Positions 12,930 through 20,430 of a DNA stretch of 46,983 bases are shown here, piece after piece. The notes beneath the pieces are model-generated. The model saw only the letters and a list, made by a program, of their open reading frames with translations. It was not told the origin of the DNA and did no database searches. Both the position numbers and the translations under genes were made by a program. The stretch covers positions 239,997-286,979 of the forward strand of contig NZ_LR734883.1 in the NCBI RefSeq assembly GCF_900010725.2, read 5' to 3'. How positions within the stretch are numbered: position 1 is the stretch's first letter; each line of letters opens with the position of its first letter. The stretch comes from Planktothrix serta PCC 8927 (lineage in GTDB: Bacteria > Cyanobacteriota > Cyanobacteriia > Cyanobacteriales > Microcoleaceae).

Positions 12930-14045
12930 GTGAAGCGAAGGTTTTTTCTCCAAGGAATCAGTACCTTAACCTTGAGTAGTGTCGTAGTGGGATGTAAACA
13001 AGCTACGGCACTCATGGTTCAAATTCTCAGAGGTTCTGTTCCGGTGCAAATGGTGAGCAAATTTCGACAACAATCTGATCAAGGTGTGATTGATTTTGTT
13101 CCCCAACTGCAACTGCAAGATTTATTTGGATTATTACAAAAATGGAAGTCTCAACCCCCAACTCAGCAGTCACCTCAAACTGAGTTAGTGATGATTGGAG
13201 ACTATTGGTTAAATTCTGCCATTCAACAACAACTGATTCAACCCCTCGACCCGAAATTATGGCCGCAGTGGTCACAACTTCCCTCCCCTTGGCAAAATAT
13301 TGTTCGGCGGAATTCTGAAGGTAAATATGATTCTAAGGGGAAAATTTGGGCGGCGCCTTATCGTTCAGGAAGTACGGTGATTATTTATCGGGTTGATAAG
13401 TTTAAGGCGTTGGGATGGACGCCTGAAGACTGGAGTGATTTATGGCGGCCAGAATTGCGTCATCGGATTTCTTTACCCAATCAAGCGCGGGAAGTGATTG
13501 GTTTAACGTTAAAAAAATTAGGCTATTCCTATAATACTGCCGATTTAAGCAAAGTTAAAAACCTAGAAGCTGAACTGCTTAAACTGCATCAAAATGTTAG
13601 ACTTTATGATTCTAATAGTTATCTGAAACCGTTAATTTTAGGTGATACTTGGTTAGCAGTGGGTTGGTCTACGGATATTCCTCCAGAGGTTCAATATCAA
13701 AATGAATTAGCCGCCGTTGTTCCTAAATCTGGTACGGCGTTATGGTTAGATTTGTGGGTGAAACCTGCGGGAGTTCAAGCGTCTCCTACGGCAACTTTAG
13801 CAGATAATTGGATCGATTTTTGTTGGTCGCCCCAAGTTGCAACTCAACTCTCCTTATTAACGGGAACAACATCCCCAATTATTCTAGGAATGAACCCCCA
13901 AGAGTTACCCCAATCTTTAAGAGAAAATCCCCTATTATTTCCGAAAGCTTCTATTTTAGAAAACAGTGATTTTCTCCAACCGCTTTCGGCAAATTCTATT
14001 AAACAGTATCAACAGTTATGGGAAAAAATTAGACTGGGAAGGTAA
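12930..14045 (+). CDS. Extracellular solute-binding lipoprotein, PotD-like
   Basis: A 371-residue protein with a GTG start at 12930. The N-terminus KRRFFLQGISTLTLSSVVVG followed by Cys is a lipoprotein signal with RR-like start, so it is probably exported and anchored by Cys22. The body resembles polyamine/iron-type periplasmic binding proteins: KIWAAPYRSGSTVIIYRVD, LGWTPEDWSDLWRPELRHRI, LKPLILGDTWLAVGWSTDI and ELAAVVPKSGTALWLDLWV. No permease or ATPase gene is adjacent, so it is an orphan binding protein or works with a distant ABC transporter. Ligand unknown. Confidence 0.8.
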   Translation: MKRRFFLQGISTLTLSSVVVGCKQATALMVQILRGSVPVQMVSKFRQQSDQGVIDFVPQLQLQDLFGLLQKWKSQPPTQQSPQTELVMIGDYWLNSAIQQQLIQPLDPKLWPQWSQLPSPWQNIVRRNSEGKYDSKGKIWAAPYRSGSTVIIYRVDKFKALGWTPEDWSDLWRPELRHRISLPNQAREVIGLTLKKLGYSYNTADLSKVKNLEAELLKLHQNVRLYDSNSYLKPLILGDTWLAVGWSTDIPPEVQYQNELAAVVPKSGTALWLDLWVKPAGVQASPTATLADNWIDFCWSPQVATQLSLLTGTTSPIILGMNPQELPQSLRENPLLFPKASILENSDFLQPLSANSIKQYQQLWEKIRLGR

Positions 14046-14378
14046 GCATCCAGAAACAAATATGTAAAGGACTATAGCACTACGCACTTTTAGAACAGGA
14101 AACAGGGAACAGTAAGCAGTGACTGAATGAGTTTCAGAATTTAGAAGTGTCCTAACTGTGAGGACGCTCGCACGACAGGAATTGTAATTTATTAGCTGTC
14201 CCATTTTTATACACATTTAAGCCATACCGTCAAGTAGAAATTTATATGTGATTACTCTATCTTTGATTGGCTCTATGAACAAAAGCTGCTATTATGATTT
14301 TAAACTCAGACGGTTTTGTTTTGACTGTCTTGCGATCGCCAATTTAATTATCAATTTCCCAAAAAACGATTAGACATT
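14046..14378. other. 333-base intergenic region before the McrBC-like operon
   Basis: It contains a degenerate GGAACAGG heptamer tract at about 14092-14113 and a short inverted pair GTCCT/AGGAC at 14151-14166. No gene was seen. A HIP1-like GCGATCGC lies at 14333-14340. The last 120 bases contain a plausible promoter (listed separately) for the defence operon. Confidence 0.4.
14267..14295 (+). promoter_or_regulatory. Candidate sigma-70-type promoter for the McrBC-like operon
   Basis: TTGGCT at 14267-14272 and TATTAT at 14290-14295 are separated by 17 bases, a good fit to a -35/-10 pair. The operon start codon is 84 bases downstream of the -10. It is a sequence match only. Confidence 0.35.
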
Positions 14379-15575
14379 ATGTCCAGCAGTCCCATTCAAA
14401 AAATCCTATTCGGAAGTCCTGGAACCGGAAAAAGCTATAGAGTTGAAAATAAAATAATTCCTGATGAGTTGAAGATAACTGACCAATCAAATGTTATTCC
14501 AACTGTGTTTCACCCAGAATACACTTATGGTGATTTTATGGGTAAACTGATGCCATTAACTGACGATAGTGGCAAGGTCGAGTATAAATACTACTCAGGA
14601 CATTTTTTAAAAGCACTAGCTAAAGCATACAAAAATATCATAAAAAGCTGTATTAAGTTTGAGCAAGACAAGAAAGAACTAACAGAGGAATACAAGAAAG
14701 AAATAGGGAAAACTCGTCAAGACGCTTTCTCTAGCGAAGAAATGTCTATTCTGAAAGAAAAGCACAGTAAGATCATAAAACAACCTGAAAATGTTGTTTT
14801 GATAATTGATGAACTTAATAGAGGTAATTCAGCAGCAATTTTTGGTACTGTATTTCAACTTCTTGATAGAAACAAAAACGGTTGGTCACAATATCCAATA
14901 ACAATTTCAGATTTAGAAAAAACTGGATTGTTGCAAGCAATAAGCTTTAAACAATATTTTCTTTCTAAAGAAAAGGGATACTCATTTGAGTATGATGGAA
15001 ATTCTTGTAAAGATGAAAATGAATACAATAAATATCTTGACTATATTTTCAGCGATTTAAGCAAAGAAGAAAGGGTTAGACTTCAAGAGTGCAAAATTAA
15101 ATTGCCCCCAAATCTATCATTCTTGGCTACCATGAATACTTCTGACAACTCTATCTACTTCATGGATAGTGCCTTTAAACGCCGTTGGGATTGGGAGTTT
15201 GTAAATATTGAAGATGATGGACAAAGAAACGTAGTGTCCGGCCGAAAAATAAAACTTTACAACAATGATACTTGTGCATGGAATAATTTTGTTGATAAGT
15301 TAAATGAATTCATCCGCAGTCATTACAAGACAGTTAGGAAAATTGAGGATAAACAGATTGGTTACTTCTTTATTAATGAAGAAACTATAACGGAAGAACA
15401 CATCAAAAATAAATTGATGTTCTTTATCTGGGATAGTGTTTTTAGTAACAATCGTAAGCCTTTGACTGAACTTTTAGAAATGACTGAAAGAGATTTAGTT
15501 ACATTTGGACAGTTTACCCAAAAAGAGGTTGTTCAAAAATTTGTTAAAAAAATAATTGGATTTGTAAATGTTTGA
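14379..15575 (+). CDS. McrB-like AAA+ NTPase without an N-terminal recognition domain
   Basis: A 398-residue AAA+ protein. Walker A GSPGTGKS is at residues 12-19, followed by the McrB-type motif FHPEYTYGDFMG (44-55). Walker B LIIDELNRGN (141-150) continues into SAAIFGTVFQLLD. The sensor is FLATMNTSDNSI (248-259) and the arginine finger region AFKRRWDWEF (265-274). A charged, probably coiled-coil insertion spans about 85-135, and another segment (about 185-238) precedes the sensor strand. Because the ATPase starts at the very N-terminus, the modified-DNA reader of classical McrB is absent. It overlaps the nuclease gene by eight bases. The likely role is the motor of a McrBC/LlaJI-type restriction complex that translocates DNA and activates the nuclease. 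Whether it uses GTP or ATP cannot be read here. Confidence 0.85.
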   Translation: MSSSPIQKILFGSPGTGKSYRVENKIIPDELKITDQSNVIPTVFHPEYTYGDFMGKLMPLTDDSGKVEYKYYSGHFLKALAKAYKNIIKSCIKFEQDKKELTEEYKKEIGKTRQDAFSSEEMSILKEKHSKIIKQPENVVLIIDELNRGNSAAIFGTVFQLLDRNKNGWSQYPITISDLEKTGLLQAISFKQYFLSKEKGYSFEYDGNSCKDENEYNKYLDYIFSDLSKEERVRLQECKIKLPPNLSFLATMNTSDNSIYFMDSAFKRRWDWEFVNIEDDGQRNVVSGRKIKLYNNDTCAWNNFVDKLNEFIRSHYKTVRKIEDKQIGYFFINEETITEEHIKNKLMFFIWDSVFSNNRKPLTELLEMTERDLVTFGQFTQKEVVQKFVKKIIGFVNV

Positions 15576-17169
15576 CCTCAGTAATATAGATATTATTAAA
15601 ACAGATCAAAAACGTGGCTACAGTAGCTATTCGTTTGTTGGTCTTCAGAGAAATAAGGAAACTGATCGCTTAGAGTTTTGGCTTCCGTTAGGATTCGATG
15701 ATTTTGATCATACAGATTTTAACTTAGTCAAAGGTTTCTTCTTCAAGATGTACCGAACTTTCAAAACGTATCTGCAAAGAAAACAGAATTATATGCAGAG
15801 CAAAGACATAACCATTGATCGAGACGGAATTATTGAAAATGAAAACGGATTTAGTTTTATTAATGAAAATAATGAACAGGTAGTTTTTTATGGCAAACTC
15901 AATTCGTTAGATAAAATAATAGAGGGTTACGATGAATTGCGAATTTCATCTTTAGAAAAAAAACAAATGAGAAGCCCAGAAATTGACTACTCAAAGATTC
16001 ATCGGTATATGCACCAAGCTGTCTATCTTGATCATGATGTGATTTATATTGACGAAATGAATATAGCCAAAAATATCTTAGTCAAAGAAAGTCCGCCAAT
16101 TTTACAACTTTTTTGTTTTATTTATACCGAAATCAAAAGAGAGTTGGAAGAATTAGAAAATATTTCCGATAGGGCTGCCGAGCTTGCCGAGGAGTTTAAA
16201 GAAAACTATTTGCAACCTAATAGTAGTTTATTTGGCGAAGATACATTTGCCGAAACCGTAGATATTTTGAGGGAAACACTGGAAGATCTTGACACTAAAA
16301 CAGCCTATAAAGATGATGATTATTGGCATTTTTTTGAAGCAGTAGAGGCGTTTTTATACGGAGAGCGACAAGAAGATAATAAAGGTATTTACTGGGGTTT
16401 TAGCAGTTTCTATGATATATGGGAGGATATGTGCCAAACTTATGTACTCAATACACCTGAATACAAAGAAAGAGCAATCTTTGCAGATATTGAAGGAAAA
16501 CTTAAACCATTAATTAATGTCACTCTCAATCCATTTGAATTGACATTAAATGATTTGACAAAAATACGTTATTTACGACCTGATTTAGTATTAAAAGAAA
16601 AAGAATACGGAATAGAAGACTTTTATAAAATCAATCAAAGAATTTATAGGCAAGAAAAATCTGCCTATGGTATATTTCTTGTTAATTATCCAAGTTTACA
16701 GGCTAATCATCCTAAAATTCTTGATAAATTTTATGAGCTTCGTGAAAAAGAAACTAATGAGCAAACAGGGAAAACGTTTAGCTATATGTTTGAACAAAAT
16801 TTAGAAAAATTTAGACTATTTATTATTAATTATATACGCTATAAATCATTTTCTTTCCTCACAATTGTTGATTATAAATATATGGGTATTTGGGATTATG
16901 AAAGGTACTCACCTGATAAAAATGGAGAAAACAAAGTAAAAGATGATATACAGAAACAGTTAGTCTATGAATGGACAATACAGCAAAATTGGAATGCAAA
17001 AACTGAAAGTGAGTTTTGGATACCTTATTTTTCTAATAACCCGCTAGAGTTTGAAAAGATACCTCCAGTAAAAGTAGATAATACTGACTTTAACAAAAGC
17101 AAGATTAAACTGGTTGAAATTAATTTCAAAACACTTCAAGATTTTTATATTAAGCAAGGATTGGTATGA
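15568..17169 (+). CDS. McrC/LlaJI-like PD-(D/E)xK restriction nuclease subunit
   Basis: A 533-residue protein. The C-terminal half has the McrC-type nuclease pattern: a Glu in FYDIWEDMC (E286), LRPDLVL with D339, FLTIVDYKYM with D435 and K437, then DDIQKQLVYEW (459-469), equivalent to the 'QlyaY' helix after the catalytic lysine. The N-terminal 330 residues hold an initial strand-rich module (about 1-110), a short HDVIYIDEMNIAKNIL motif (156-171) and helical segments, and probably contact the ATPase ring and perhaps DNA. It resembles LlaJI-type enzymes, but which subfamily is uncertain. Its start overlaps the ATPase end and its stop overlaps the next start as ATGA, so the three proteins are probably made in fixed ratio. 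Confidence 0.75.
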   Translation: MFDLSNIDIIKTDQKRGYSSYSFVGLQRNKETDRLEFWLPLGFDDFDHTDFNLVKGFFFKMYRTFKTYLQRKQNYMQSKDITIDRDGIIENENGFSFINENNEQVVFYGKLNSLDKIIEGYDELRISSLEKKQMRSPEIDYSKIHRYMHQAVYLDHDVIYIDEMNIAKNILVKESPPILQLFCFIYTEIKRELEELENISDRAAELAEEFKENYLQPNSSLFGEDTFAETVDILRETLEDLDTKTAYKDDDYWHFFEAVEAFLYGERQEDNKGIYWGFSSFYDIWEDMCQTYVLNTPEYKERAIFADIEGKLKPLINVTLNPFELTLNDLTKIRYLRPDLVLKEKEYGIEDFYKINQRIYRQEKSAYGIFLVNYPSLQANHPKILDKFYELREKETNEQTGKTFSYMFEQNLEKFRLFIINYIRYKSFSFLTIVDYKYMGIWDYERYSPDKNGENKVKDDIQKQLVYEWTIQQNWNAKTESEFWIPYFSNNPLEFEKIPPVKVDNTDFNKSKIKLVEINFKTLQDFYIKQGLV

Positions 17170-17615
17170 TTAAACATGATTCTGCGGATACCGTTATTAG
17201 CCTTTTTAATCCTGTTGTTTCACTAAGTTCGCAAGTTCGTCAGAGAGTGAATGAAGAATTTATTTATCCAATTTTAGAGGATTTTTTTAAAGATAAAGGA
17301 GGGATTAATTCTTATGAAGAGTTAGATCCTGATCAGATTAAAACTGAAATTGAGTTTTCAAAAAAAGATACGATAGAAAGCTATGTACAATCCTATGTTT
17401 ACAAAGAAGTGATGAATACAATAAGTAAAAATGATGATGGCACGATAAATTTTAAGCCCAGATATGTTGTTTCTTTTGACCAAGACTTAACAAACTTTCA
17501 AGAAGAATGGGGGATCAAATACGGTGAATTGAGACTAGGAGACGCGGCTATTTTATATTTTATTTATATTGATTTACAGGAAGTTATTCGGTTTATTAAA
17601 AAAATTAATAGGTAA
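17166..17615 (+). CDS. Unrecognised third protein of the McrBC-like operon
   Basis: A 149-residue protein whose ATG overlaps the preceding stop (ATGA), strong evidence for translational coupling. I recognise no family. It is rich in acidic and aromatic residues, with predicted helices around SSQVRQRVNEEFIYPILEDF and DTIESYVQSYVYKEVMN. The strand-like segment PRYVVSFDQDLTNF follows, and a hydrophobic tail DAAILYFIYIDLQEVIRF closes the protein; the tail is not long enough for a confident membrane helix. Since the ATPase lacks a recognition domain, this protein could supply specificity, regulation or an immunity or assembly function. All of that is inference from position. Low GC like its two partners, it looks acquired together with them. 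Confidence 0.65.
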   Translation: MIKHDSADTVISLFNPVVSLSSQVRQRVNEEFIYPILEDFFKDKGGINSYEELDPDQIKTEIEFSKKDTIESYVQSYVYKEVMNTISKNDDGTINFKPRYVVSFDQDLTNFQEEWGIKYGELRLGDAAILYFIYIDLQEVIRFIKKINR

Positions 17616-17737: not shown

Positions 17738-18310
17738 ATGATTCAAACTGAAGATAAACCCCAAATTCAATCTCTCTCCCTAGAGGAATTTTTAACCCAA
17801 CCGGAAACCAAACCCGCCCAAGAATATATTAACGGAGTTGTTTATCAAAAACCAATGCCAAAAGGAAAACATAGTCGCATTCAAAAATGTCTCATTGATT
17901 CTATTAGCCAAGTCGCTGAAACCAAACATTTAGCTTGTGCTTTTCCTGAATTACGCTGTAGTTTTGGCGGGCGTTCTATTGTTCCTGATATAGTTGTATT
18001 AGAATGGCAGAATATCCCCCTAGATGAACAAGGGGAAATCGCTAATGATGTTAATATTGCCCCAGATTGGACAATTGAAATATTATCCCCAGACCAAAAT
18101 ACAACCCGTGTGATTAATAATATTTTATTCTGTTTAAAACATCAAACACAATTAGGTTGGTTAATTGAACCGCAGGAAAGATTAGTATTAGTATTTAAAC
18201 CCAAACAACAACCCGAAGTATTTGAAGGAGAACAAATTTTACCCGTTTTAGATATATTAAAAGATTACCAATTATCGGTTAATGAATTATTCAATTGTTT
18301 AAAACCGTAG
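17738..18310 (+). CDS. Uma2-family putative PD-(D/E)xK nuclease (DUF820)
   Basis: A 190-residue protein from ATG 17738. The family core is visible: SLEEFLTQPETKPAQEYING at the start, GRSIVPDIVVLEW (about 88-100, putative catalytic Asp) and PDWTIEILSPDQ (about 119-130, catalytic Glu), then KHQTQLGWLIEP. Uma2 proteins are extremely abundant in cyanobacteria and their role is mostly unknown; nuclease activity is predicted from fold. There are 122 bases after the McrBC-like operon with different base composition, so I treat it as a separate gene. Confidence 0.85.
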   Translation: MIQTEDKPQIQSLSLEEFLTQPETKPAQEYINGVVYQKPMPKGKHSRIQKCLIDSISQVAETKHLACAFPELRCSFGGRSIVPDIVVLEWQNIPLDEQGEIANDVNIAPDWTIEILSPDQNTTRVINNILFCLKHQTQLGWLIEPQERLVLVFKPKQQPEVFEGEQILPVLDILKDYQLSVNELFNCLKP

Positions 18311-20318: not shown

Positions 20319-20430
20319 CTATAACAGTCGCGCCTGGGGTCTTAGGACATAGACTGATGCTAAAACCGTGCGCCGTACACCCCTATGAACCTACCTGTTC
20401 CCTGTTCCCTGTTCCCTGTTCCCTGCTATA
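20319..20430. repeat. Dispersed repeat, copy 2, with GTTCCCT heptamer tract
   Basis: The core at 20333-20361 matches the copy at 1562-1590 in 28 of 29 bases and is again followed by four or five GTTCCCT heptamers (about 20396-20425) and CTGCTATAT. It lies in the divergent-free gap downstream of psbJ and upstream of the radical-SAM gene. Confidence 0.75.

Follow-up and report, generated by a model that had tools for sequence, protein, structure and literature searches.

The restriction system BsuMI of Bacillus subtilis (YdiR-YdiS-YdjA) bears linked 5-methylcytosine (m5C) methylases and cuts unmethylated DNA. According to PMC1459862, its McrB-type motor and that of LlaI, from a lactococcal plasmid, are short (343 and 337 amino acids [aa], respectively), lie in cassettes of three open reading frames (ORFs), and align along their full length with R1.LlaJI. 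The same source describes LlaJI (pNP40) as cutting unmethylated DNA and having two m5C methylases and a 585-aa, specificity-determining R1, with no third restriction gene. The McrBC system of Escherichia coli comprises two genes, the N-terminal domain of McrB binding methylcytosine, while CoCoNuT is an McrBC branch with extra genes, fused domains, and NxD as GTPase motif, the NxxD branches having been deferred to a later paper (PMC11090510). Here, we compared with these systems a three-gene operon from Planktothrix serta PCC 8927, located at positions 14379-17615 of an analyzed stretch of 46,983 nucleotides (hereafter the window), which is part of the 6.27-Mb host genome (G000, contig C63). 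A preliminary description made from the sequence had framed it as an McrBC/LlaJI-like system with an unassigned third component. The relationship was borne out, but the frame was too narrow: since short-McrB three-ORF cassettes (LlaI, BsuMI) had already been described, the system is a variant of the known LlaJI/LlaI/BsuMI kind, and its new parts are the third gene (T3), the missing linked methylase, and the domains swapped among its relatives. A literature search of titles and the beginnings of abstracts found neither the T3 family nor such a three-gene family, and no description of a methylase-free arrangement across phyla, of a T3-nuclease fusion, or of McrB relatives with leucine-rich repeats (LRRs).

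The operon, all on the forward strand, consists of a gene for an McrB-type AAA+ (GTPase-like) motor (14379-15575; ORF of 398 aa), an McrC-type nuclease gene resembling LlaJI R2 and BsuMI YdjA (15568-17169; 533 aa), and T3, of an unnamed family (17166-17615; 149 aa). As previously described, the genes overlap, the first two by 8 bases and the nuclease and T3 genes by 4 bases in the form of ATGA, and they are AT-rich, with a GC content of 31.2% versus 40.3% in the flanks; none of 745 equal-length stretches outside the operon (overlapping, in steps of 50) reached a value as low. The motor matched Pfam AAA_5 (25.3 bits, cut-off 22) and PADLOC REase_II (E 2.6e-31), and McrB proteins were its only convincing relatives in the PDB (best 6ut3, E 2.3e-16), while its score with the NCBIfam McrB model (33.5 bits) was far under the cut-off of 637. 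It carries a Walker A motif (GSPGTGKS, 14412-14435, + strand, residues 12-19), a Walker B motif (VVLIIDELNR, 14793-14822, + strand, residues 139-148), and the signature motif NTSD (15135-15146, + strand; MNTSD at residue 252), an NxxD form shared with E. coli McrBC, in contrast to the NxD of CoCoNuT. Because Walker A starts at residue 12 and the whole stop-to-stop frame spans only 416 aa, the motor has no space for an N-terminal DNA-binding domain, so that it lacks a counterpart both of the modified-cytosine-binding domain of E. coli McrB and of the N-terminal DNA-binding half of LlaJI R1. In this respect, it resembles the LlaI and BsuMI cassettes, in which a LlaJI-like nuclease likewise stands beside a short McrB.

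We located Walker A in the 55 T3-linked McrB proteins that reach 300 aa and have a discernible copy of it. In 34 of them, it begins no later than residue 45, the start codons having been set mechanically for this count. It lies beyond residue 100 in 13, all from a Pseudomonadota group (mostly Methylococcales), and scanning ten of these long proteins revealed LRRs in seven and Mrr_N in three, one protein having both. The LRR-bearing genes belong to loci L071, L073, L080, L092, L093, L098, and L112 (Methylococcales and other Pseudomonadota bins); the LRR match of the L085 McrB was weak and under the cut-off. Such relatives would link restriction motors to protein-sensing immunity.

The nuclease could not be identified with the curated profiles that the preliminary description had proposed, as neither Pfam PF10117 nor PF09563, the LlaJI family, matched it at E values up to 1; PF09563 also matched none of 20 genomes (the host and 19 relatives), although it does match the control, B. 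subtilis. Its kinship with LlaJI-type enzymes emerged from profile and structure comparisons. Aligned with an LlaJI-type R2 profile by hhalign, it gave E 0.0005 over 322 columns (listed probability 31%), and the best PDB match of its predicted model was 9a5m_A, from an integrative model of BsuMI YdjA-YdiS; we take this 465-aa chain A to be YdjA, since the BsuMI motor has 343 aa. Conservation was assessed in an alignment of 74 nuclease proteins, the window included, after removal of duplicate loci and of copies not exceeding 440 aa. The catalytic residues read from the sequence at E286, D339, D435, and K437 are intact at those positions, and they have not been lost in relatives: E286 (16423-16425, + strand), the D and K of the DxK motif D435-Y-K437 (16870-16878, + strand), and K463 were invariant in all 74 proteins, and a PD, corresponding to P338-D339 (16579-16584, + strand), was found between E286 and DxK in each of them. 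Because the spacing of this PD varies, the aligned D339 column holds D in only 46 of the 74 proteins. Q464 is kept in 70 and Q472 in 60.

The third protein matched no Pfam or PADLOC family and no PDB sequence, and its single NCBIfam match was at chance level (E 0.0042, 16 bits, cut-off 525). No Pfam family was matched by more than one of 34 members of the T3 family, and a structure search with the predicted T3 fold (predicted local distance difference test [pLDDT] 76.6) returned no match. The protein is acidic. Whether it is always linked to the nuclease, as the preliminary description had asked, was addressed in 56 related loci derived from the genome contig scan with the nuclease alignment. 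T3 lay beside the nuclease or was fused to it in 51 of them: it was a separate ORF in 46, fused in 4, and split over two frames in L063. Five loci had no T3 (L070, L094, L108, L109, and L111), yet the contig of L070 stops about 120 bases past the nuclease match, the nuclease ORF of L094 has only 333 aa, and the remaining three belong to a T3-less clade. The greedy ORF caller overlooked the McrB of L058 and the T3 of L063, both recovered by tblastn, and it may have missed further genes. A T3 profile run on 386 cyanobacterial genomes gave matches in at least 11, one of which (G088; E 5.8e-4 over 66 positions) is probably due to chance; the other ten hold at least 11 confident T3 genes, all located at a nuclease of the T3-linked family, with a degraded operon in G383 (L035), where about 3.5 kb separate the pieces. 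These counts are lower bounds, given that the T3 search considered the best nine candidates per genome and the nuclease search the best three.

A quick tree was built from 78 nuclease rows, its outgroup branches being long. In it, the T3-linked rows fell into three deep groups (supports 87, 81, and 99), and those with a T3-nuclease fusion formed one clade of 6 (support 100). The linkage is thus not universal, in that 15 T3-less rows (L033, L042-L048, L050, L053-L055, L108, L109, and L111), in which the McrB/McrC pair is present, formed a clade adjoining that of the window (support 100); two further rows marked as lacking T3 are L063 and L070. A T3 hidden within the nucleases of this T3-less clade, or within LlaJI-type nucleases, was sought with hhalign and not matched. 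The T3-less nucleases also have the longest distances between the main PD and DxK, 170 to 216 residues. For one natural fusion (L105), the underlying alignment held just four fused rows, and nearly the whole T3 part of the predicted structure had a pLDDT below 50.

The nearest relative of the operon is L058 from Planktothricoides, whose McrB, nuclease, and T3 are 77%, 69%, and 68% identical to the window proteins; Spirulina is the other genus among the nearest named relatives. T3 of some other relatives is larger: an Lcl_C domain is present in L075 and L096, and about 200 extra residues are found in L029, L057, L059, L061, and L062, this additional part matching no Pfam family over the cut-off in L057, L059, and L062. 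The T3 proteins of the window and L058 have neither Lcl_C nor the extension. At 148 aa, that of L058 is just as short, which suggests, judging from these sequences, that the short form is stable. The notion that the window T3 is a cut-down copy was rejected, as no remnant of the C-terminal part of the L057 T3 (345 aa) was detected downstream (best E 0.88).

Since unmethylated DNA is the substrate of LlaJI-like enzymes, the host must be protected from them by a methylase. In agreement with the preliminary description, no methyltransferase was detected among the 51 predicted genes of the window by an m5C hidden Markov model (HMM), an N6/N4 HMM, and two motif patterns (best E 0.085), the models resting on nine protein sequences of the m5C type and two of the N6/N4 type. 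The same held for most relatives. We inspected 59 non-duplicate T3 loci from several phyla (the 51 of the contig scan and 8 others), five of which had a methylase-like gene at a distance of up to about 8 kb, namely m5C in L093, D12 in L082, HsdM in L087, DUF1156 with a DPPY motif in L099, and, in L096, an N6/N4 HMM match truncated where the stretch ends; many contigs end within 8 kb, and some methylases could therefore be missed. L034 and L084 had a motif match only. Judged by these sequences, a methylase is not consistently linked to T3 loci. For comparison, we viewed eight LlaJI-type loci among the 54 plasmid and phage records with an McrB match, and methylases adjoined the motor and nuclease genes in six, including both phage loci, which are of the LlaJI type with methylases; L155 had none within 5 kb and L154 only annotated adenine methylase pieces. 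The latter locus, taken as LlaI-like on account of its 337-aa motor, encodes an LlaJI-family nuclease and further ORFs, but neither of its additional proteins, of 253 and 413 aa, showed similarity to T3. The window differs from LlaJI and from the LlaI/BsuMI cassettes in the absence of a detected linked methylase.

A three-gene version spread over several phyla, with no linked methylase and, in the window, a motor without a DNA-binding domain, raises the question of how self and foreign DNA are told apart. We lean toward the view that the three gene products form a motor-driven restriction complex belonging to the LlaJI/LlaI/BsuMI branch of McrBC-like enzymes, in which T3 is a nuclease-docked subunit, most probably engaged in target recognition or cleavage licensing. 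By analogy with McrBC and LlaJI, the McrB-type AAA+ ring, having no DNA-binding domain of its own, would assemble and bind the PD-DxK nuclease, and nucleotide hydrolysis would drive movement on DNA and activate cleavage; a ring that moves on DNA and a nuclease that cuts is the most likely division of labor. T3 would dock at the C-terminal side of the nuclease, the site of its fusion in one clade, and would take over the task that the N-terminal domain of McrB performs in LlaJI and E. coli McrBC, with self-discrimination independent of a linked methylase. The complex might act against phages or plasmids. With a motor devoid of a DNA-binding domain, the target would have to be recognized by T3, by the N-terminus of the nuclease, or by insertions in either the nuclease or the motor. 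T3 is the best candidate on account of its link to the nuclease, which has become a fusion in one clade, and of the additional domains present on T3 in some relatives. It is also the obvious candidate for self/foreign discrimination, and small enough for testing. Two observations weigh against T3 as a simple DNA reader, namely its acidic character and the existence of the T3-less sister clade, and they make a role in licensing or protein sensing nearly as likely. An extension of this thought, which we regard as improbable, is that T3 and the swappable McrB N-terminus both serve as sensor sockets of a single motor nuclease, through which it could recognize a phage protein or a DNA-bound structure instead of a sequence or a modified base. 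In some relatives, the proposed sockets contain LRR repeats, Mrr_N, Lcl_C, or an unnamed C-terminal domain. If true, a restriction motor would be switched on by protein sensing, and no methylase would be needed.

The placement of T3 next to the nuclease is open to a different interpretation, in which it is an inhibitor or stabiliser (an antidote or chaperone) of the nuclease rather than a recognition subunit. Its small size, acidity, ATGA overlap with the nuclease stop, and fusion to the nuclease C-terminus in one clade would all suit such a partner, but a permanent fusion speaks against a releasable antidote, and the extra domains on some T3 proteins are what recognition subunits have; we therefore see this as a tentative possibility. 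Two other explanations concern the methylase. The preliminary description had left room for a modification-dependent (type IV) McrBC variant, which would cut foreign-modified DNA once the modified base had been read, either by T3 or by an insertion within McrB or McrC. Both the McrB/McrC architecture and the scarcity of methylase-like genes, none in the window and few around T3, agree with it. Nevertheless, the closest relatives of the nuclease, LlaJI R2 and BsuMI YdjA, come from systems cutting unmethylated DNA, no modified-base reader domain was matched by Pfam in the three window proteins, and the host genome contains, outside the window, 8 m5C (PF00145) and 14 over-cut-off N6/N4 (PF01555) methylase matches, so that a broad methyl-dependent nuclease would endanger its own host. 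A type IV variant thus appears doubtful, and the eight m5C matches in particular make it unlikely that the complex attacks m5C DNA in general, as E. coli McrBC does. Alternatively, the operon could form an ordinary LlaJI-like type II system protected by one of these unlinked host methylases (the m5C match sharing its contig is about 200 kb distant), and methylase genes do adjoin most of the LlaJI-type loci viewed. We hold this to be unlikely, given that no methylase is consistently linked to T3 across phyla and that the operon, found on plasmids and on scattered chromosomes, could not rely there on a methylase encoded in trans. A nuclease-docked T3 with a part in recognition or licensing remains the reading we prefer.

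With regard to its genomic setting, the operon lies at a synteny break within the genus, where acquired defence genes are often located. The upstream block is conserved in nine congeners, and all nine alignments stop at 14040-14049 (end of synteny at 14046). The radical-SAM gene downstream of the operon is conserved throughout the genus (ten genomes, host included), but is present in none of the nine congener stretches fetched, two of which soon reach a contig end; in G253, it lies about 0.8 Mb away from the upstream block.

Several relatives show further peculiarities. Two small genes separate the nuclease from T3 in L076, L085, L093, L096, and L112; in L076 (9598-10231), they are a RelE-type toxin gene (by Pfam) and a small partner, and the insert in the other four was judged RelE-like by position and look. 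On a Nostoc plasmid (L030, 10125-14035), a HerA-type ATPase (DUF87) and an unassigned 704-aa protein follow closely past T3, possibly forming a five-gene operon, and on a Hymenobacter plasmid (L029, 3633-6638), a gene with an FtsK/SpoIIIE domain lies directly upstream of McrB. Operon copies are degraded or interrupted in L035, L041, and L094. Cyanobacterial-type copies in two metagenome bins, one of Rickettsiales (L106) and one of Flavobacterium (L101, nearly identical to L102 on the nuclease tree) point to mis-binning or recent transfer. No virus copy was confirmed among 221 stretches of viral contigs matched by nuclease patterns, and McrB-like matches in 14 phage records were at most 32.2% identical. 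The window also holds a CpeS gene (by Pfam) and, starting 122 bases past T3, a gene for a putative nuclease of the Uma2 family (17738-18310), considered as a part of the system and, on the basis of its Pfam Uma2 match, taken as outside it. Finally, a short stretch at 20394-20425 matched some congener loci repeatedly at offsets of about 7 bases, in the manner of a heptamer-like tandem repeat.
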